Assembly: GCA_015069095.1 (NCBI GenBank)
Contig: SVJH01000015.1
Coordinates: forward strand, 1-53,303
From: Oscillospiraceae bacterium
GTDB lineage: Bacteria > Bacillota > Clostridia > UMGS1810
Length of the DNA: 53,303 bases
Reading direction: 5' to 3'
The position numbers and the translations under genes are program-made. Below, in pieces: positions 20,422 to 53,303 of this stretch (positions are counted from its first letter, which is position 1; the number at the start of each line of letters is the position of its first letter). Under the pieces are notes generated by a model. That model was not told the origin of the DNA, did not search any database, and worked only from the letters and a program-made list of their open reading frames with translations.

Positions 20422-20475
20422 TTAAAAAATCCCTAAGTCGCATGCTCTTAAACTGTGCACTTTACTTTTTTGAAT

Positions 20476-21657
20476 TTATTCGTTTATAAATTTCATAAGC
20501 ATGTCTGCGCTTTTTTCAACGTATTCGTCGAAAAGTCCGTTATCTCTAAGATAGAAAAGAACTGTGTAACGGTCGCGAAGGATAAGCGCTTTTTTAAGAC
20601 CTTTCACAATTGTTTCTCTGTCTTTTACAACGTATGGCATTTTCATATCTTTACAGAATTTTTCAACTGCATCAAAATACGGAATGTATTTTTCAACAAG
20701 TTTTTTCATTTTTTCGTCGTTGAATTCTTTATATAAAAGTTTGTAAATCATACCGATTAAAAGTGTTGCTTCGCAAACTTCAAGGCCGTGAAGATTTGGA
20801 ACTTTTCCTTCTTCAACGTCAAATAATTCCCATGAATGAGCAACAATGTGTTCACTTCCTGATGCAGGACGTGAGTTTCCTGTATACGCCATTCCAAGAC
20901 CTGTAACTAAAAAGCCTTCCATAACGTTTTTAATACACTCTGGGTCGCGTCCTTTAAGGTTATATCCGTTTTTGAGGCATTTATCTGTTGCGTCTATAAC
21001 ATCGTTTGCAATTTTTTCACAGTAATATTCGCCTGTGTAATCTCTTGCCATTTCCCAGTCAATCATACCTGTGTATTTACCAAACATATCGCCAATACCT
21101 GCAAGCATCATATCCCAAGGTGCATCTTTTAAAATGTCAAGGTCAGCAATTAAATATTTTGGTGTTGTACCCTGAACAGTAGATTTTGTTCCATCGTGTA
21201 AAAACGGTGTTCCGGCGCTAACATATCCGTCCATTGAAGGAGCAGTTGCAACAACACCATAAGGAATGTTCATTCTATAACTTACAAGACGTACAGAATC
21301 GTTAACTGTTCCTGAACCTACTGCAAGCATAAAGTCAGGAAGAGGAGAGTACCCCATAAGATTTCCTTTTGCGTTAGGGTCTTCAATGTTTAAAAGTATT
21401 CTTCCTATTGTGTATTCGTTTGGAAGCACCAAATCGTCATCAATAACAAATACTCTTGAAAGTTTTCCTGCATTTTTAAGGATTTCTTCAACTTTTTCGC
21501 CTGCTGCTTTGTATGTGTTTTTGTCGGCAACTACGTAAATTTTGTTGTAATCTTTTAAAATTTCAGGAATTTTGTTTAATGCGCCGCTTGAAATTTCATA
21601 TCCTTCAAGTGGTGCGCGATGGCTTTTCATATCGCAGTTACATGTAAATTCAATCAT
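20476..21657 (-). CDS. araM: AraM-type sn-glycerol-1-phosphate dehydrogenase
   Basis: 393 aa from ATG 21657, preceded by AAAGGAGAATTAAAA. It is an iron/metal-dependent dehydrogenase of the AraM/G1PDH type: AVGSGTVNDSVRLVSYRMNIPYG is the nucleotide-binding and Asp region, VATAPSMDGYVS follows as in the family, and SGSEHIVAHSWEL supplies metal-binding His. AraM enzymes interconvert dihydroxyacetone phosphate and glycerol-1-phosphate with NAD(P)H. They often sit in arabinose/arabinan loci, as may be the case here. Last gene of the run after the CE12 esterase (15 bases). Confidence 0.85.
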   Translation of the reverse strand: MIEFTCNCDMKSHRAPLEGYEISSGALNKIPEILKDYNKIYVVADKNTYKAAGEKVEEILKNAGKLSRVFVIDDDLVLPNEYTIGRILLNIEDPNAKGNLMGYSPLPDFMLAVGSGTVNDSVRLVSYRMNIPYGVVATAPSMDGYVSAGTPFLHDGTKSTVQGTTPKYLIADLDILKDAPWDMMLAGIGDMFGKYTGMIDWEMARDYTGEYYCEKIANDVIDATDKCLKNGYNLKGRDPECIKNVMEGFLVTGLGMAYTGNSRPASGSEHIVAHSWELFDVEEGKVPNLHGLEVCEATLLIGMIYKLLYKEFNDEKMKKLVEKYIPYFDAVEKFCKDMKMPYVVKDRETIVKGLKKALILRDRYTVLFYLRDNGLFDEYVEKSADMLMKFINE

Positions 21658-44522: not shown

Positions 44523-44631
44523 AAATATACCTCAATATCAATAATTTAATATCTTCATTTTACATTATTTTTTAAAATGTGTCAATCTATATGACATAAT
44601 AAAAGATTTTTCACACTTATTTGTCAAAGTT

Positions 44632-44639
44632 CATATAAT
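44632..44639 (+). promoter_or_regulatory. Possible sporulation-type -10 of cotJ operon
   Basis: CATATAAT 23 bases before the cotJA start resembles the sigma-E -10 (CATAnnnT). The -35 is not clear. cotJ of Bacillus is sigma-E controlled, so the match is sensible but weak. Confidence 0.35.
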
Positions 44640-44662
44640 ACATTAAAAAGTGAGGTGATACT

Positions 44663-44845
44663 ATGGATAAAAAAATTGAGTTTATGCCACAAAATCCAAG
44701 ATATGCATTTGCATATGTTCCGTTTCAGAAGTTTGAGAACTTGTATAACACAAACGATGCACTGTGGTGCGGAACACTTTTTAAAGATTTATATATGCCA
44801 TTTTCAGATTATGCAAATAATCCTATAATGAGCCCGTTTAAATGA
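44663..44845 (+). CDS. cotJA: Spore coat-associated protein CotJA
   Basis: 60 aa, RBS GAGGTGAT. AYVPFQKFENLYNTNDALWCGTLFKDLYMPF is the CotJA signature (YVPxQ, then ALxxGTLFxDLYxP). First gene of the cotJABC operon that encodes inner spore-coat components made in the mother cell. Its presence shows the organism sporulates or descends from spore formers. Confidence 0.93.
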   Translation: MDKKIEFMPQNPRYAFAYVPFQKFENLYNTNDALWCGTLFKDLYMPFSDYANNPIMSPFK

Positions 44846-44858
44846 AAGGAGAAATAAA

Positions 44859-45167
44859 ATGAAGTTAGTATATGATGACTGCTTTATGTGTGATAGCGAA
44901 ATACCAAAAAGTCAGTCCAAACTTTTAAACAGCATACGCGAAGTATGCTTCGCAATTGTTGAATTAAATCTGTTTTTAGATACGCATCCAAATAATATGG
45001 AAGCACTTGCACTATTTAAAAAATTATGTGCAAATAAAGAAGTTCTTGAAAATGAATATAAAATGAAATATGGTCCTTTAAAGGTATGCGATGTTTCAGA
45101 TAACACACCATTTTCGTGGGTATCAGAAGACAATAAATGGCCATGGCAAAGGGGGATAAATGAATAA
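44859..45167 (+). CDS. cotJB: Spore coat protein CotJB
   Basis: 102 aa, RBS AAAGGAG. The family core is present: LLNSIREVCFAIVELNLFLDTHP, ALALFKKL, KYGPL, and the terminal WVSEDNKWPW. It ends in TAATG, overlapping the cotJC start by one base. It is needed for the coat assembly of CotJC. Confidence 0.93.
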   Translation: MKLVYDDCFMCDSEIPKSQSKLLNSIREVCFAIVELNLFLDTHPNNMEALALFKKLCANKEVLENEYKMKYGPLKVCDVSDNTPFSWVSEDNKWPWQRGINE

Positions 45168-45373
45168 TGTGGAATTATGATAGAAAACTTATGTACCCGG
45201 TAAATATAAAAAATCCAAATCCATCCCTTGCAAAATTTATCATTGCTCAATACGGTGGACCGGATGGCGAACTTGCAGCAAGTCTTAGATATTTAAGCCA
45301 GAGATATACAATGCCTACTGCTCAAACGAAGGGACTTTTAAACGATATCGGTACAGAAGAACTTGTGCCTTGA
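45167..45373 (+). pseudogene. cotJC: CotJC, 5' part, interrupted by a mobile element
   Basis: 68 codons are open. The first ~65 residues are a normal CotJC start (manganese-catalase family): PNPSLAKFIIAQYGGPDGELAASLRYL, RYTMPT, then LLNDIGTEEL. Full-length CotJC is near 190 aa and goes on through metal-binding residues such as the His that follows TEELAH; here the frame changes to VP and stops. The recombinase gene of an integrated element begins 32 bases further. The 3' part of cotJC should lie beyond the window on the far side of the element. It is either a dead gene or one repaired by excision in the mother cell. Confidence 0.88.
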
Positions 45374-45375
45374 TG
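45350..45375. other. Probable left attachment junction in cotJC
   Basis: cotJC similarity runs through ACAGAAGAACTTG (45353-45365) and is lost in the following bases. The crossover of the serine recombinase is therefore expected near 45360-45372. A perfect inverted repeat AGGGCAAA..TTTGCCCT (45387-45406) stands just inside the element and may belong to the recombinase site or act as a weak terminator. Confidence 0.65.
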
Positions 45376-45405
45376 TTGGATATGGTAGGGCAAAAAAATT
45401 TGCCC

Positions 45406-47043
45406 TTATACTTTCAGTTTAATATCAAGGTGTATTGGCGGTTTTGTCCAGTCACCACCGACTTCAAATCTTGTTCCTTTTGGTTCGCCAGGTTCTTTTT
45501 TCATTCTTTCAGGTTTTTCCCTTTGGTATTCAATGCGGTCAATACATTCCTTCAAAAGTTTGTTTTGTGTTGCTGCATCCGCTTCAGGATTCTTTAATGC
45601 TTCAAGGGCATCTTTGAATTTTTTCATTTTTTCTTCATAATCAACTGGTTCTGGCATGGATGCATGTGCTTTGCACAGTGCCTGTTGGATTTCTTCTTTT
45701 TCCTTCAGCAAGTTTTCATTCAACTTTCTGAAGATTTCCACTGGCATTCTTTGTGAAGGATCAGGATGTGATTGTGCTTCCCATTGTGCCAGTTCTCTTG
45801 CTTCCAGGTCTTTCATTTTCTTTTCAAGGTTTTTAATCAAACTTGCATGCAATTTGATTGAATCACCTTCATCATTTTTGATTCTCAATTCAAAATCTTC
45901 AATGCATTGTTCCAAAACTTCTACAATTCTATTGATTATTTCTTCATATGTGCAAGAACCATTTTTGCAGTATTTCTGACCTTCACAAGACAATCTGGGT
46001 GCTGTTTTTTCACTTCCGTCTTTGTTCTTAAATGTTCTATATGACATTGACCTTCCACATTTACACCACAAAATGCTTGCAAGTGGATTTCTGATTTTTG
46101 TTGTTGGTTTGGCTCTGTGATTTCTTCCCCTTTTTTCTTGTGCTGCATTGAAAAGGTCTTCTGGAACAATTCCTTCATGTCTTCCTTCATAGATTAAATA
46201 TTCACCAATTTTTGCTCTTGGTCTTGTCTTGATGAATTCACCTTCTTCAACAACATCAATGGTTTTTCGCCAATTCCATTTGACTTTGCCAATATAGTGT
46301 ATATTGGAAAGTTTGTCTTTCAATGCAGCTTGTGACCAGTGTTTGCTTTTTGGTGCTTTTATGCCCATATTGTCAAGATAGTTGCATATTTTTGCACATC
46401 CCATGTCTTTGTTTACATACAAATCAAATATCAGTCTTACAACATCCGCTTCTTCTTTGTTTTCTTTTAGTGTTGGACATTTTCTTTTGCCATCCATCAC
46501 ATATGTTTTGTCAAATCCATAAGGGGCAACAGAACCTAAATAATTTCCTTGACTGACTGAAAGCAATCTTCCCCTGTTTTGAATTTTCTTGTAATAATTA
46601 AGATAGTCATTTCCCCTTTTCAATTCACTTTCAATTGCATTCCAGTCATATTCATCCCTTAAATCGTAAATTCTTTCTGGTGTTATAACATAGGTGTTTG
46701 TATGTTTGAACAATTTCATTATTCGCCCAATATCTTCCAAATCCCCACGAGTTAACCTTTGCGGTTCAACCACTTTCACAGCTTTATATTTTGGGGATTC
46801 AATCAATCGAAGCAATTTGTTGATTTCTGGTCTTTCTTTGATTGTTTCACCTGATACAATCTCACGAAAACGATTTTCTTCAGGAACTTTTGCATCAAGA
46901 TGTCTTTCATCCCATTCATCCAAAATTGCTTCATGTTTTTCAAGAACTTCTTCAACTGTCAGCAATGGATCATCACTTTGCGACTTTCTCAAATAGTCAA
47001 GAATTTCTTCTGGTCTGAATTCAATTTTTTCATACCTATACAT
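45406..47043 (-). CDS. Large serine recombinase (integrase/excisionase)
   Basis: 545 aa, RBS GGAAGGTG. N-terminal resolvase domain with Tyr17-x-Arg19-x-Ser21 (YLRKS), Ser21 the nucleophile, and VVEPQRLTRGDLEDIGRI. Recombinase domain (~170-290; YLGSVAPYGFDK, YVNKDMGCAKICNYLDNMGI), zinc-ribbon domain (~315-370, CKCGRSMS...C...YC) and a long coiled coil (~385-470). It catalyses attP x attB integration and, with a directionality factor, excision. The gene end lies 32 bases from the cotJC fragment, the usual place beside an att site. It follows the 190-aa gene on one transcript. Confidence 0.93.
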   Translation of the reverse strand: MYRYEKIEFRPEEILDYLRKSQSDDPLLTVEEVLEKHEAILDEWDERHLDAKVPEENRFREIVSGETIKERPEINKLLRLIESPKYKAVKVVEPQRLTRGDLEDIGRIMKLFKHTNTYVITPERIYDLRDEYDWNAIESELKRGNDYLNYYKKIQNRGRLLSVSQGNYLGSVAPYGFDKTYVMDGKRKCPTLKENKEEADVVRLIFDLYVNKDMGCAKICNYLDNMGIKAPKSKHWSQAALKDKLSNIHYIGKVKWNWRKTIDVVEEGEFIKTRPRAKIGEYLIYEGRHEGIVPEDLFNAAQEKRGRNHRAKPTTKIRNPLASILWCKCGRSMSYRTFKNKDGSEKTAPRLSCEGQKYCKNGSCTYEEIINRIVEVLEQCIEDFELRIKNDEGDSIKLHASLIKNLEKKMKDLEARELAQWEAQSHPDPSQRMPVEIFRKLNENLLKEKEEIQQALCKAHASMPEPVDYEEKMKKFKDALEALKNPEADAATQNKLLKECIDRIEYQREKPERMKKEPGEPKGTRFEVGGDWTKPPIHLDIKLKV

Positions 47044-47126: not shown

Positions 47127-47699
47127 TTATTCTTTATAATGTAAAATGTAACTTTTGCCATGCTTTGTTTTTTCCAATTTACCATCTTTGTGCATTTGAT
47201 AAAGAATATTTGACACATCACTTTGAAAAGGTTCATCAAATAATTCTTTGAATTCTGATTGCAAAATTCCATCATTTGCTTTTAATAGTTCAATCACTGT
47301 CGGCAACAGTTTTTGTTTCTTGATATAAATTTCTTGCAGATGATCGAGATTTGTTGTCAATTCTTCCAGTTCTTTTTTTCGTTTTTCGGCATAGTCTTTT
47401 GTTGTTAAAATTTCATAATACCAAAATTCAAAACATTCACCTTTTGTTTTGCATAGTTTTTCAACATCTTCAAGATATAAAATAAATGACTTTAATGCTG
47501 AATACAATTCTTTTGGGGATTTGTTTTTTGAATCAAGCCACATATTCAAAAAATATGAATATTCAGTGTTGATTTTATCGGTGAATTCTTTTGTGTAAGC
47601 ATACCATCCCCAAGGCAATTCACCTTCTGGTGTTAAATGCTCTAAATCAACTGTTGGCTTTTTATTATCAACACTTTTAAAAAAATTAAAAAACTTCAT
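47127..47699 (-). CDS. Phage protein of unknown function next to recombinase
   Basis: 190 aa, RBS AAAGG. Helical with a coiled coil (~105-135; KRKKELEELTTNLDHLQEIYIKKQ), and a C-terminal winged-helix-like part (ELLKANDGILQSEFKELF...VSNILYQMHKDGKLEKTKHGKSYIL). Similar proteins stand upstream of serine recombinases in Clostridia prophages. It could be a recombination directionality factor or DNA-binding helper; position supports this but there is no direct evidence. Confidence 0.65.
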   Translation of the reverse strand: MKFFNFFKSVDNKKPTVDLEHLTPEGELPWGWYAYTKEFTDKINTEYSYFLNMWLDSKNKSPKELYSALKSFILYLEDVEKLCKTKGECFEFWYYEILTTKDYAEKRKKELEELTTNLDHLQEIYIKKQKLLPTVIELLKANDGILQSEFKELFDEPFQSDVSNILYQMHKDGKLEKTKHGKSYILHYKE

Positions 47700-47824: not shown

Positions 47825-47923
47825 ATGAAAGAACAGTATATTTCAGAAATTGTCAATCTATTAAATCAATGCAACGATCCTTCATTGTTTGACCTTATTT
47901 TGAAATTACTTCAAAAAAGCTGA
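47825..47923 (+). CDS. 32-aa phage protein
   Basis: ATG 47825 behind AAAGGATG; the frame stays open upstream to 47735 but that part includes the promoter and SOS-like box. Product MKEQYISEIVNLLNQC followed by LFDLILKLLQKS: one amphipathic helix pair, a pattern seen in tiny proteins beside phage repressors. It converges with and overlaps the repressor gene by 18 bases. The SOS-like box suggests it is made on DNA damage, perhaps as an antirepressor. That role is a guess. Confidence 0.55.
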   Translation: MKEQYISEIVNLLNQCNDPSLFDLILKLLQKS

Positions 47924-48259
47924 CAGCATCTGTTTCACACCAACAATTTTTTCAGAATCAAGTTTGTATAATGATTCAACAACAGAAAGAAAATCTTCAT
48001 CAGTTCGCATTCTTATAATGATGTCAGCCATGACATCATTATTTTTTTGCACTTTTTCCCAATCCATCAAGAAAGCCACTGTTGTTCCCATTACTTCAGC
48101 AAATTTCACCACCTTTGATTGTGGGATGTCCACTTTTCCTGATTCTATTCTTGCAACAGTTGAATGATTGGCATATCCCATGCGGTCAGCTAATTCACGC
48201 AATGTCCATCCAAGTTCATTTCTGCGGATTTTTATTTTTTCACCTATATTTTTTGACAT
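47906..48259 (-). CDS. XRE-family phage repressor (cI-like)
   Basis: 117 aa from ATG 48259 (AAGGTGG nine bases upstream). HTH_XRE residues ~7-65 (IKIRRNELGWTLRELADRMGYANHSTVARIESGKVDIP), then a short helical C-terminus. No LexA-type peptidase domain, so it is not self-cleaving, which fits the separate SOS-inducible gene. It faces the Cro-like gene across about 160 bp with repeated operators. Confidence 0.85.
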   Translation of the reverse strand: MSKNIGEKIKIRRNELGWTLRELADRMGYANHSTVARIESGKVDIPQSKVVKFAEVMGTTVAFLMDWEKVQKNNDVMADIIIRMRTDEDFLSVVESLYKLDSEKIVGVKQMLSAFLK

Positions 48260-48261
48260 GT

Positions 48262-48302
48262 AATGCACCACCTTTTTCCCTTATTATAAAGGTTTGTTGC
48301 AT
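48262..48302. promoter_or_regulatory. Repressor promoter with operator halves
   Basis: Minus-strand promoter TTGCTT (48311-48306), 17-bp spacer, TATAAT (48288-48283). Half-operators AATGCACCAC (48262-48271) and TTGTTGCAT (48294-48302) flank and overlap it. The same two words form one full site at 48375-48395. Confidence 0.65.
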
Positions 48303-49121: not shown

Positions 49122-49325
49122 ATGAAAAAATCAAAAATCAAAGCATTTGTTTTGAAAACAATCACAAAAATAATGGCGGTTGTCTGGCTGTTGTCAATGA
49201 CTGCACTTGATTCAGAATCAAGCATTCCTGTTGTTGCTTGTTTTATATCACTTGCATGGATTGCCCTGTTTATGTATGCAAACGGATATAAGCCACAGAA
49301 GGAAGTGGTGCAAGATGTCGGTTGA
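49122..49325 (+). CDS. Small phage membrane protein
   Basis: 67 aa from ATG 49122 (GGGGTGG nine bases upstream). Basic N-terminus, then two hydrophobic segments (about residues 14-29 and 33-52), so probably two membrane spans. The 3' end overlaps the YqaJ gene by 11 bases in another frame. Function unknown; superinfection exclusion is one option. Confidence 0.6.
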   Translation: MKKSKIKAFVLKTITKIMAVVWLLSMTALDSESSIPVVACFISLAWIALFMYANGYKPQKEVVQDVG

Positions 49326-49968
49326 AATGAAAATCCTTGCAAGTCATGAAGAATGGTTGGAAGCAAGAAGCAACACAATTGGTGGTTCAGATGCCAGTGC
49401 AATAGTTGGCATGAATCCCTACAAGTCAAACATTGATTTATGGCTTGAAAAGACTGGACAAGTTGTGCCAGAAGATATTTCAGACAAGTCTTATGTGAAA
49501 TTTGGCACAGAAGCTGAACCACTTATGCGGAAACTGTTTGAACTGGATTTCCCTGAATATCAAGTCTTTTATAAAGAAAACAACCTATTTTTGAATGACA
49601 AATACCCCTGGGGGCATTATTCAGCGGATGGTTGGCTGACAGATGAAAACGGCAGAAAAGGGATTTTGGAAATCAAAACAACAGAAATTCTTCAGAGTAT
49701 GCAAAAAGAGAAATGGAAAGACAGACTTCCTGATAATTATTACATACAACTTCTTCATGGCTTTTTGATTATGGAAGCGGATTTTGCCATTTTAAAAGGT
49801 CGATTGAAAACAGTGTTCAATGGTATTCCATACATACAAATAAAACACTATCCAATTGAAAGAATTGATGTTGAAGATGACATTCAATATCTTGCAAAAG
49901 AAGAAAAACGATTTTGGGAAAAGGTTGAATCAAGGCAGAAGCCAGGTTTGATTTTACCGAATTTTTAG
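49315..49968 (+). CDS. YqaJ-family viral recombinase/exonuclease
   Basis: 217 aa from ATG 49315 (GGAAGTGGTG upstream). PD-(D/E)xK-type nuclease of the lambda-exonuclease/YqaJ group: RSNTIGGSDASAIVGMNPY, FGTEAEPLMRKLF, SADGWLTDENGRKGILEIKT (Asp and Glu-x-Lys active site) and YYIQLLHGFLI. It resects double-strand ends to give 3' overhangs for the RecT annealase encoded downstream. Confidence 0.88.
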   Translation: MSVEMKILASHEEWLEARSNTIGGSDASAIVGMNPYKSNIDLWLEKTGQVVPEDISDKSYVKFGTEAEPLMRKLFELDFPEYQVFYKENNLFLNDKYPWGHYSADGWLTDENGRKGILEIKTTEILQSMQKEKWKDRLPDNYYIQLLHGFLIMEADFAILKGRLKTVFNGIPYIQIKHYPIERIDVEDDIQYLAKEEKRFWEKVESRQKPGLILPNF

Positions 49969-49981
49969 AAAGGAAAACAAA

Positions 49982-50581
49982 ATGAAAGATTGGACAGGAA
50001 ACACAACATCAATATATGCAACACATGGTGCAAGCAATCATTCAGAAGGTGTTCGTGCTGATTATGATTATTATGCAACAGATCCTGATGCGGTTGAAAA
50101 ACTTCTTGAAAAAGAAGAATTTTTTCACTATATTCTTGAACCTGCATGCGGTGAAGGTCACATTTCTGAAGTTCTATTGAATCATGGCTATGATGTTATA
50201 TCTTCAGACATTGTTCACAGGGGATATGAGAACCAACAACTGACTGAAGACTTTTTGAAGTCAGGTTCAGTGCCGAGAAATAGCAGGGACATCATCACAA
50301 ATCCACCTTATGCACAAGCAAAAGAATTTGTTGAACATGCACTTGATATTTCACAAGAATCAGTGAAGATTGCAATGTTTCTGAAGTTGACATTTTTGGA
50401 AGGAATCAAAAGAAAAGGGTTGTTTGACAAATATCCACCAAAAACAATCTATGTGTTCAGAAATAGAATTGATTGTTGGAAGAATGGAATCAAACCTGAA
50501 AAACCATCAAAGGCGGTCTGCTATGCATGGTTTGTGTGGGTGAAAGGGTTCAAAGGCAATCCGCAAATTAAGTGGATTTAA
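49982..50581 (+). CDS. Phage DNA N6-adenine methyltransferase-like protein
   Basis: 199 aa, RBS GAAAGG. ILEPACGEGHISEVL (residues 51-65) is the SAM-binding motif and NPPY (107-110) the catalytic motif of amino-methyltransferases. No target-recognition domain is visible and no restriction enzyme is adjacent, so it is likely an orphan phage methylase that protects DNA or regulates it. Confidence 0.85.
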   Translation: MKDWTGNTTSIYATHGASNHSEGVRADYDYYATDPDAVEKLLEKEEFFHYILEPACGEGHISEVLLNHGYDVISSDIVHRGYENQQLTEDFLKSGSVPRNSRDIITNPPYAQAKEFVEHALDISQESVKIAMFLKLTFLEGIKRKGLFDKYPPKTIYVFRNRIDCWKNGIKPEKPSKAVCYAWFVWVKGFKGNPQIKWI

Positions 50582-50612: not shown

Positions 50613-51398
50613 ATGGAATTAAAAGTGAATGAAATCATGCTTCCTGAAGCAATACGATTCAATTATGAAGAATTGAAAACGGAACTGTCAGCAAAGATTC
50701 AAAAATATGAAACTATGGTTTACAGTGAAGCGGAAATAAAAACGGCAAAAGAAGATGTTGCCAATTTAAGAAAGTTAAAGAAAGCATTGAATGATGAAAG
50801 GAACAGACTTGAAAAAGAGTACATGCAGCCATTCAATGAGTTCAAACAGCAAGTGAATGAAATCATTGCAATCATTGACAAGCCAGTTTTGATGATAGAC
50901 GGACAAATCAAAGAATTTGATGAATTTAAAAAGCAAGAAAAACACAAAGAAATTGAAGAATGCTTTGATTCATTTACAAAGCCAGAATGGTTGACACTTG
51001 AACAGATATTCAATCCAAAATGGCTGAATGTGTCGGTAAGCATGAAAAGTGTGACTTCTGAAATCATCACAATACTTGAAACAATTGATGCAAACCTTGC
51101 CACACTTCAAAATTTACCTGAATTCAGCTTTGAAGCGGTTGAAGCATACAAAACATCACTGGACATAAACAAAGCCATTCAGGAAGGAAAAAGACTGTCT
51201 GACATACAGAAGAAAAAAGCAGAACAGGAAGAAACAATGAAACAAGCATCTGAAAAGGTTGCACCAACTGAAGCACCAGAAACACCAGAAGCACAAAAAC
51301 TTCAAGAAGTTTGTTTCAGATGCTGGTTGACAACAGCTGATGCGGTGGCATTAAAAGGATTCTTTATGAACAGAAACATCAAATTTGAAGCTATATAG
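50613..51398 (+). CDS. DUF1351-family phage protein
   Basis: 261 aa, RBS GAAAGGAATTG. A long helical middle (residues ~18-130; KTAKEDVANLRKLKKALNDERNRLEKEYMQPF), the mark of DUF1351, followed by an acidic Ala/Pro/Glu-rich linker and a small C-terminal domain. It is often encoded together with YqaJ and RecT and is assumed to assist phage recombination. Function not established. Confidence 0.8.
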   Translation: MELKVNEIMLPEAIRFNYEELKTELSAKIQKYETMVYSEAEIKTAKEDVANLRKLKKALNDERNRLEKEYMQPFNEFKQQVNEIIAIIDKPVLMIDGQIKEFDEFKKQEKHKEIEECFDSFTKPEWLTLEQIFNPKWLNVSVSMKSVTSEIITILETIDANLATLQNLPEFSFEAVEAYKTSLDINKAIQEGKRLSDIQKKKAEQEETMKQASEKVAPTEAPETPEAQKLQEVCFRCWLTTADAVALKGFFMNRNIKFEAI

Positions 51399-51724: not shown

Positions 51725-51949
51725 ATGGTGGATTTTAAACCTTTGGGTGAATTCTTTGCTGAATTTGATGTAATAAGCAAGGAAAGACACAATGAATTGC
51801 TGGTTGCAGCACATGACGGAAATGCACTGAAAAATGTGATTCATGAAAAAGCAAAAGAATATGGCAGTCTGTCATGCGAAGAAATCAGATTGCTTGATAA
51901 TTTATATTTTAAAAATGAAAGTGGGGAAAACAAAAATGGCAGTAAATAA
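51725..51949 (+). CDS. Small phage protein, unknown
   Basis: 74 aa behind AAGGAAG. Charged helical protein without known motif (FKPLGEFFAEFDVISKERHNELLVAAHDG). It overlaps the recT start by 14 bases, so it is probably translationally coupled to RecT. Confidence 0.55.
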   Translation: MVDFKPLGEFFAEFDVISKERHNELLVAAHDGNALKNVIHEKAKEYGSLSCEEIRLLDNLYFKNESGENKNGSK

Positions 51950-52841
51950 TTCTTTAGTAAAAAAATCAAACGGAAGATTGGGAATGGCAGCATACTTGAA
52001 CCAGGATGCAGTCAAAAATCAAATCAATTCTATTTTAGGAAGCAAAAGGGGGATTTCCTTCATCACAGCAGTTGTGTCATCAGTGCAAGCAAATCCAGCA
52101 TTGCAGGAATGCACACAACCTTCAATTCTTCAAGCAGCTTTGCTTGGTGAATCGTTGAATCTTTCACCTTCTGCTTCTTTAGGTCAATACTGGATCATTC
52201 CATTCAATAACAAGAAAAAAGGTGTGAAAGAAGCACAATTCCAACTTGGTGCAAACGGATATAAACAGCTTGCAATGCGAACTGGTCAATATAAAGACAT
52301 TGACTTCATTGAAATTCGTGAAGGTGAATACAAGGGCAGAGATAAACACACAGGCAAACAAGTATTTGAATTCATTGAAGATGATGATGAAAGAGAATCA
52401 TTGAATGTTGTTGGATATATGGCATATTTTGAACTTTTAAACGGATTCAGAAAATCTGTGTACTGGACAAAAGCCAAAATGGAAAGACATGCAGACCAGT
52501 ATTCACAAGCATTCAGTTTGGAAGCATACAACAAATTGAAAAATGGTGAAATTCCTGCAAGTGAAATGTGGAAATATTCTTCATATTGGTATTCAAATTT
52601 TGCAGGAATGGCAGAAAAAACATTGATAAAACACTTATTGTCAAAATGGGGAATTCTTTCAGCGGAATTGATTGCTGCACTTGATGCTGATTATGCAGTC
52701 ATAAACGAAGACGGAACAAAAAACTATGTTGAAACAGAATCAGATGTGATTGAAATGCCAGTTCAGGAAGAAACACAGGATGAAATGACTGAATCTTCTG
52801 ACATTGAATCCACTGATGCAAAAGATGCTTTATTTAACTAA
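51936..52841 (+). CDS. recT: RecT-family single-strand annealing protein
   Basis: 301 aa from ATG 51936, chosen because the earlier in-frame ATGs lie deep in the upstream gene and are not RecT-like. Family hallmarks: SFITAVVSSVQANPALQECTQPSILQAALLGESLNLSPSASLGQYWIIPF, EAQFQLGANGYKQLAMRTGQYKDID, and an acidic tail. It anneals complementary strands during phage recombination, using the ends made by the YqaJ nuclease. Confidence 0.95.
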   Translation: MAVNNSLVKKSNGRLGMAAYLNQDAVKNQINSILGSKRGISFITAVVSSVQANPALQECTQPSILQAALLGESLNLSPSASLGQYWIIPFNNKKKGVKEAQFQLGANGYKQLAMRTGQYKDIDFIEIREGEYKGRDKHTGKQVFEFIEDDDERESLNVVGYMAYFELLNGFRKSVYWTKAKMERHADQYSQAFSLEAYNKLKNGEIPASEMWKYSSYWYSNFAGMAEKTLIKHLLSKWGILSAELIAALDADYAVINEDGTKNYVETESDVIEMPVQEETQDEMTESSDIESTDAKDALFN

Positions 52842-53167: not shown

Positions 53168-53303
53168 AAATTGAAAAATGGCTGAAGGTTGAATTTGGCT
53201 ATGGCGATGGCTATGGCTCTGGCGATGGCTCTGGCGATGGCTCTGGCTATGGCTCTGGCTCTGGCGATGGCGATGGCGATGGCTATGGCGATGGCTATGG
53301 CGA
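53155..53303 (+). CDS. Glycine-rich GYGDG/GSGDG repeat protein, 3'-partial
   Basis: Starts at ATG 53155 behind AAGGGGTGG and remains open at the window end. After 14 ordinary residues (MEAIKIEKWLKVEF) every second codon is GGC (Gly), alternating with TAT, GAT or TCT (Tyr, Asp, Ser), so the DNA is a tandem 6-base-type repeat. Such tracts occur in some phage early proteins. Function unknown; the tract should vary in length by slippage. Confidence 0.7.
   Translation, partial: MEAIKIEKWLKVEFGYGDGYGSGDGSGDGSGYGSGSGDGDGDGYGDGYG

Follow-up and report, generated by a model that had tools for sequence, protein, structure and literature searches.

A large serine-recombinase element inside the spore-coat gene cotJC of an Oscillospiraceae bacterium, and the recurrent interruption of this gene in Clostridia

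The cotJ operon and the junction in cotJC

The stretch of DNA analysed here (the window) is a whole contig of 53,303 nucleotides (C21, SVJH01000015.1) of the 2.06-Mb genome of an Oscillospiraceae bacterium (GCA_015069095.1, 46 contigs, 98% complete, hereafter G000), and it carries a cotJABC operon whose last gene, cotJC, is cut by a temperate-phage element with its own large serine recombinase (SR). In Bacillus subtilis, CotJC is a spore-coat protein of the mother cell. The genes and sites around the junction, including the left attachment (att) site, attL, are the following:

44612..44640, + strand: sigma-K-type promoter-like match, CACA-N16-CATATAATA, upstream of cotJA (consensus match only)
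44663..44845, + strand: cotJA (PF11007, E 7e-15)
44859..45167, + strand: cotJB (PF12652, E 3.8e-24)
45167..45361, + strand: host-encoded 5' piece of cotJC, codons 1-65 (PF05067 match and junction alignment)
45359..45360, + strand: putative crossover dinucleotide GA, inside the Glu65 codon (centre of the palindromic attP in viral relatives; GA core by symmetry in other elements of the same break site, 2b below)
45361..45385, + strand: phage half of attL, ACTTGTGCCTTGATGTTGGATATGG (similar to the reverse-complemented phage arm at attR/attP of relatives)
45406..47043, - strand: large SR (integrase), 545 aa (PF07508, E 4.1e-20; PF00239; PHROG 95, integrase, E 9.6e-73; site-2b clade of the SR tree)

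Nothing is missing from the operon before the middle of cotJC. Specifically, the cotJC open reading frame (45167-45373, + strand, 68 aa) corresponds to the N-terminal part of the Mn_catalase/CotJC family (PF05067 positions 1-67 of 284, E 9.9e-21), is normal through LLNDIGTEEL and then runs into V-P-stop, with the stop codon at 45373 lying in prophage DNA, so that a sporulation gene is broken within its coding sequence, at codon 65 (GTEE|L). The SR gene ends exactly 32 bases past this stop, which places a site-specific recombinase beside the junction; the early stop and the neighbouring recombinase, both pointed out in the initial annotation, are borne out by the reading frame and by the PF05067, PF07508 and PF00239 matches. 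In an alignment to the structure 1jku, Glu65 corresponds to Glu66 of the Lactobacillus plantarum manganese catalase, a metal (manganese) ligand of that enzyme. The sigma-K-type pattern found upstream of cotJA occurs three times in the window, both strands counted, and this match is suggestive of a promoter, no more.

An in-register alignment of cotJC pieces from many genomes places, in the group of the window, host sequence through GGTACAGAAGAA followed by a phage arm (GTGCCTTGATGTTGGATATGG in the window); an arm of this kind, reverse-complemented, stands in front of the group's 3' cotJC pieces. Relatives of the window SR (33-69% identical) in GTDB genomes adjoin a cotJC piece at seven of eight loci, the closest of them at the same codon, and about ten unintegrated viral relatives (L193-L195, L197-L199, L202, L205-L207, L212) have an intact, near-symmetric attP, whose centre is mostly TTCA or TGAA, about 50 bp beyond the SR stop, a distance similar to that in the window. 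Because close relatives of the SR abut cotJC at the same codon and viral relatives carry the complete palindromic attP, the window junction is, judging from these comparisons, a real att site and not a chance boundary, in agreement with the att-like position first suggested for the element. The SR gene adjoins the 5' cotJC piece in the window, L183, L186 and L188 and the 3' piece in L185, L189 and L191, as expected if the core dinucleotide sets the orientation of integration at the same attB. On the SR strand, downstream of the SR gene, the central dinucleotide of attP is TC in some related phages and GA in others (L193-L212). Moreover, Roseburia phage Jekyll (LR596902.1) encodes an integrase 41% identical to the window SR, and joining the two ends of its record gives a palindromic attP whose ATATCCAACAT arms are similar.

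Break points and recombinase lineages across the class

The occurrence of split cotJC genes was surveyed in 60 relatives and in 393 genomes drawn evenly from the class. cotJC is present in 256 of the 393 and is in pieces in about 45 of these 256, in more than 20 families, each case backed by complementary pieces or by an adjacent SR; the figure of about 45 is a minimum, since the examination concentrated on genomes that lack a strong full-length match. The interruptions fall at five recurrent break points in a gene of about 190-200 codons, with up to three elements in one gene:

Site 1, QYGG|PDGE: two to three codons before a metal-ligand glutamate codon (1jku alignment)
Site 2a, DIG|TEEL: two to three codons before a metal-ligand glutamate codon
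Site 2b, TEE|L, the site of the window: within a metal-ligand glutamate codon
Site 2c, AK|GTL: not at a metal-ligand codon
Site 3, LAAE|QKA: within a metal-ligand glutamate codon

Three cotJC pieces are present in G137, G171, G301 and G229 and four in G157; in the closed genome G400 the number is also four when a coding stretch of about 20 nt, enclosed by two elements, is included. The whole elements range in size from 3.3 kb (G255) and 4.7 kb (G142; site 1 of G137) up to 157 kb (G051).

All recombinases found beside cotJC junctions are large serine recombinases, and a tree of 57 of them follows the break points closely. The 20 site-2a SRs form one clade (support 100/99), the 17 site-2b SRs another (100/100), and both 2c SRs a third; site 3 accounts for two changes and site 1 for three, so that the five labels total 5 changes against a mean of 30.6 after shuffling, on a tree for which the program warned of long branches between the main groups. 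SRs of one host family are often sisters. Recombinase lineage, as read from this tree, predicts the insertion site in cotJC, and beyond the single interruption initially annotated the gene is, on the same comparative grounds, a multi-site target of several dedicated SR lineages.

Some elements inside cotJC encode large secreted-type proteins, possibly glycoside hydrolases (L058 9509-15758; L062 6667-9252), and resemble cargo islands more than prophages since no phage genes were seen in them. In G391 (L123 3714-5897) the SR frame continues into the 3' cotJC piece, and one open frame of 728 codons joins recombinase and coat protein. The Clostridioides difficile phage phi027 was considered as a further cotJC insertion and rejected, since the cotJC-like gene there is intact and, according to the published text, attR lies upstream of the gene rather than within it.

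Computed in-frame rejoining and selection on the split gene

For 46 junction pairs the crossover was placed, with no use of the reading frame, at the shared dinucleotide that gives the most symmetric attP, and the flanks were joined by script only, to show the empty site. Of these symmetry-chosen crossovers, 34 of 46 restore the frame, where one third is expected (P 2e-8, pairs taken as independent), and the chosen dinucleotides converge on GG at sites 1 and 2a and on GA at sites 2b and 3. When the core dinucleotide is fixed for each site, 42 of 44 junctions are in frame, and the two that are not (G309, G171) are low-symmetry placements. Most rebuilt CotJC proteins have 180-220 residues and HMM scores like those of intact ones (267-332 bits, median 311), for example 328 in G184, 313 in G137 and 289 in G157; the rebuilt genes include the three-piece genes of G137 and G301 and the four-piece gene of G157.

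The pieces of the split gene were also compared between species of one family that share the same interruption. Omega, the ratio of nonsynonymous to synonymous change, is 0.080 for G018/G309, 0.067 for G137/G400, 0.073 for G255/G301 and 0.037 for G051/G077, values that place the interrupted cotJC of these four pairs of related species under strong purifying selection. Synonymous divergence (dS) for G137/G400 is 0.84 in the site-1 SR, 0.69 in its cargo gene, 1.06 in cotJB and 0.57 in cotJC, and for G018/G309 it is 0.93 in the SR and 0.70 in cotJC. Since SR or cargo dS (0.69-0.93) thus resembles host-gene dS (0.57-1.06), the site-1 elements of G137/G400 and the elements of G018/G309 look orthologous and inherited. 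The simplest reading of these comparisons is that the lineages of these relatives have carried an interrupted cotJC for a long time while selection continued to act on its protein, which would require reassembly of the gene at some stage of life.

Frameshifted cotJC genes were kept apart from the interrupted ones. In G230, G291, G246 and G078 (L128 5140-5760; L129 680-1300; L073 1180-1790; L169 3387-3966) cotJC is uninterrupted but shifted by +1 at or next to interruption site 1, 2a or 2b, owing to one additional C ahead of a Gly codon (YCGGA). G230 and G291 have both frameshifts in common, with an omega of about 0.04 at low divergence. These frameshifts are possibly sites of recoding or scars.

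Proposed excision in the mother cell and competing explanations

The element of the window would have been integrated by its own large SR at a dedicated attB inside cotJC, and no full CotJC would be made as long as it stays in place. Recombination of attL with attR, by the SR and a directionality factor encoded by the element, would then remove the element exactly and leave an uninterrupted, in-frame cotJC, presumably in the sporulating mother cell. Both host and phage would survive such an arrangement, as with the skin element in sigK, because the mother cell, in which the cotJ operon is expressed, does not pass on its chromosome. We regard skin-like excision as the probable explanation of the window element as a whole; for the organism of the window we infer excision itself, its timing in sporulation and its restriction to the mother cell. 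With more reserve, we lean towards a broader picture in which cotJC is a developmental assembly gene: roughly a fifth of the cotJC-bearing Clostridia would hold it in two to four pieces, SR lineages would be dedicated to five fixed points, which mostly coincide with manganese-ligand codons or lie no more than three codons away, and several excisions would be coordinated in the mother cell to yield one coat protein, alongside the reassembly of sigK in some species.

The link to sporulation comes from several sides. spo0A is present in all 17 genomes tested (G000 and 16 with split cotJC), and in G000 both spo0A and an intact sigK are above the cut-off; no second cotJC was found in this genome by the family search. 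The classic skin target, sigK, is itself split beside split cotJC in G137 (L219, C1:498501-508000) and in G400, with its own SR. In G400 (L220, C1:1668001-1682000) two elements apparently divide sigK into three pieces, the middle one short, with recombinase genes in the gaps. Small conserved proteins, which are candidate directionality factors, occur in several 2b elements (G142, G184, G062, G051, L214) and upstream of the SR in 2a elements (G137, G400, G301, G039, G018, G309); they have no significant Pfam match and no clear promoter signal, and no partner of the 2a or 2b type was recognised in the window.

Several observations weigh against excision of this kind. Sigma-E/K promoter motifs are not enriched before the SR genes, which fits the scheme of C. 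difficile skin, where a constitutive SR works with a 72-aa directionality factor, the only one of the two controlled by sigma-E and SpoIIID (PMC5025042), yet provides no positive evidence. SR dS is 0.33 against 0.51 for cotJC in G051/G077, 0.31 for the site-2a SR of G137/G400 and saturated in G255/G301; as these values are low or saturated, only two pairs support an element inherited over a long time, and the lower ones suggest that the G051/G077 and the site-2a G137/G400 elements may be younger arrivals. In the single-contig genome G365 (L118, L119), kept as an exception, two cotJC pieces lie about 675 kb apart in the wrong order, so that simple excision could not rejoin the gene as assembled. 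In the 46 contigs of G000, moreover, family, 3'-half and attR-arm searches found neither the 3' cotJC half nor attR: the family search matched the 5' piece alone, and the predicted phage arm of the far attachment site has an exact match at the known attL only. Excision, as initially proposed, would restore the coat gene in the relatives, by computed in-frame joins; the 3' half expected beyond the element was not found in G000. The 3'-half query found only a short C-terminal look-alike on contig C28; a further insertion site at the cotJC C-terminus, considered from this look-alike, is not claimed because such look-alikes are short dispersed repeats outside the listed genes. Two strong copies and a weaker third match are present on C28 and a similar copy in G008; the repeats resemble the last 28 or so cotJC codons and have a TTAAATTACTAA-like sequence before them (G000 C28:1215-1316 and 20458-20544; G008 C20:1199-1273).

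Lastly, the window element carries ordinary phage genes, has the large serine-family integrase and the attachment site next to int that mark a temperate phage, and may be simply a phage. About 8 kb of it lie inside the contig, with genes of a phage early region, and its far end is outside the window because the contig ends in a low-complexity repeat:

47127..47699, - strand: prophage gene (weak Pfam match to DUF7343, below cut-off)
47906..48271, - strand: phage repressor-like helix-turn-helix protein (PF01381, PHROG 8)
49207..49968, + strand: RecE-like exonuclease (PHROG 434, E 5e-53)
49982..50581, + strand: phage DNA methyltransferase (PHROG 799, E 2e-63)
50613..51398, + strand: phage protein (PHROG 674, E 6.5e-47)
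51843..52841, + strand: RecT-like annealing protein, true start probably inside the frame (PHROG 148, E 1.4e-62)
53205..53303, no strand: GGCTMTGGCKATGGC-type simple repeat, where the contig ends and with it the part of the prophage that can be seen

For the window element taken alone, the main rival is therefore plain lysogeny, in which cotJC would be a conserved, dispensable attB, switched off in lysogens, freed by excision on phage induction only and kept under selection during uninterrupted periods. The RecE/RecT, repressor and methyltransferase genes, the relatives that resemble active phages with a free attP, the silence of sporulation promoter signals at the SR genes and the fact that conserved sites in genes are common targets of large serine recombinases (PMC10083194) all agree with it. 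It accounts poorly for elements of 3-5 kb that persist in cotJC, some with large secreted-type proteins and no phage genes seen, for the G137/G400 and G018/G309 elements that have diverged about as much as host genes with a cotJC omega near 0.07, and for the sigK that is also kept interrupted in G137 and G400, since a spore former must repair sigK; on this evidence we consider lysogeny alone unlikely. That the prophage has inactivated cotJC and both are decaying would agree with the missing 3' half in G000, but the 5' piece and the att site are intact, the SR is of full length and interrupted cotJC genes elsewhere are under strong purifying selection, which makes a dead gene very improbable. 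An assembly or binning artefact that fused a phage contig to cotJC, conceivable in an assembly of 46 contigs, is less credible still and already contradicted, because the same type of junction recurs independently in many genomes, including the single-contig G051, G137, G184, G255 and G400, and in viral contigs.

Compared with known systems, skin-like excision from cotJC would apply a known principle to a target gene that is new and in which dedicated sites are unusually dense. Skin in sigK of B. subtilis and C. difficile is likewise a serine-recombinase element inside a mother-cell gene, and its excision reconstitutes sigK precisely and in frame (PMC5025042); in cotJC the target is a coat protein instead of a sigma factor, several separate insertion sites lie in one gene, and excision is deduced. 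SPbeta in spsM, vfbin in spoVFB, gin in gerE and yin in yabG are excised from late sporulation genes during sporulation (PMC4191935, PMC5595907, PMC10747680); they are prophages or prophage-like elements, gin being a non-prophage one, and each is a single element in a different gene, whereas cotJC is one gene with several. With sigK, these are the interrupted sporulation genes named in that literature, and cotJC is not among them; a search of open-access papers found nothing on its interruption by a prophage, a serine recombinase or an intervening element, in line with the earlier remark that no description was known. cotJC would be a new and widespread target among the few spore genes known to be reconstructed by DNA excision, and it shows that distinct recombinase lineages can cut one small gene at several fixed points without its being lost. 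Comparison can now be used to test if these elements are parasites that the host tolerates or switches that serve its development, and recombinase families with five distinct natural attachment sites in one gene are on offer. For a single gene with more than one element, the closest parallel is nifD of heterocyst-forming cyanobacteria: their heterocyst genes, nifD and others, contain several recombinase-bearing elements, up to four in nifD of Rivularia (PMC4874684). As in cotJC, several elements lie in one gene of a terminally differentiating cell, but in another phylum and developmental program, and about half of the heterocyst elements use tyrosine recombinases.
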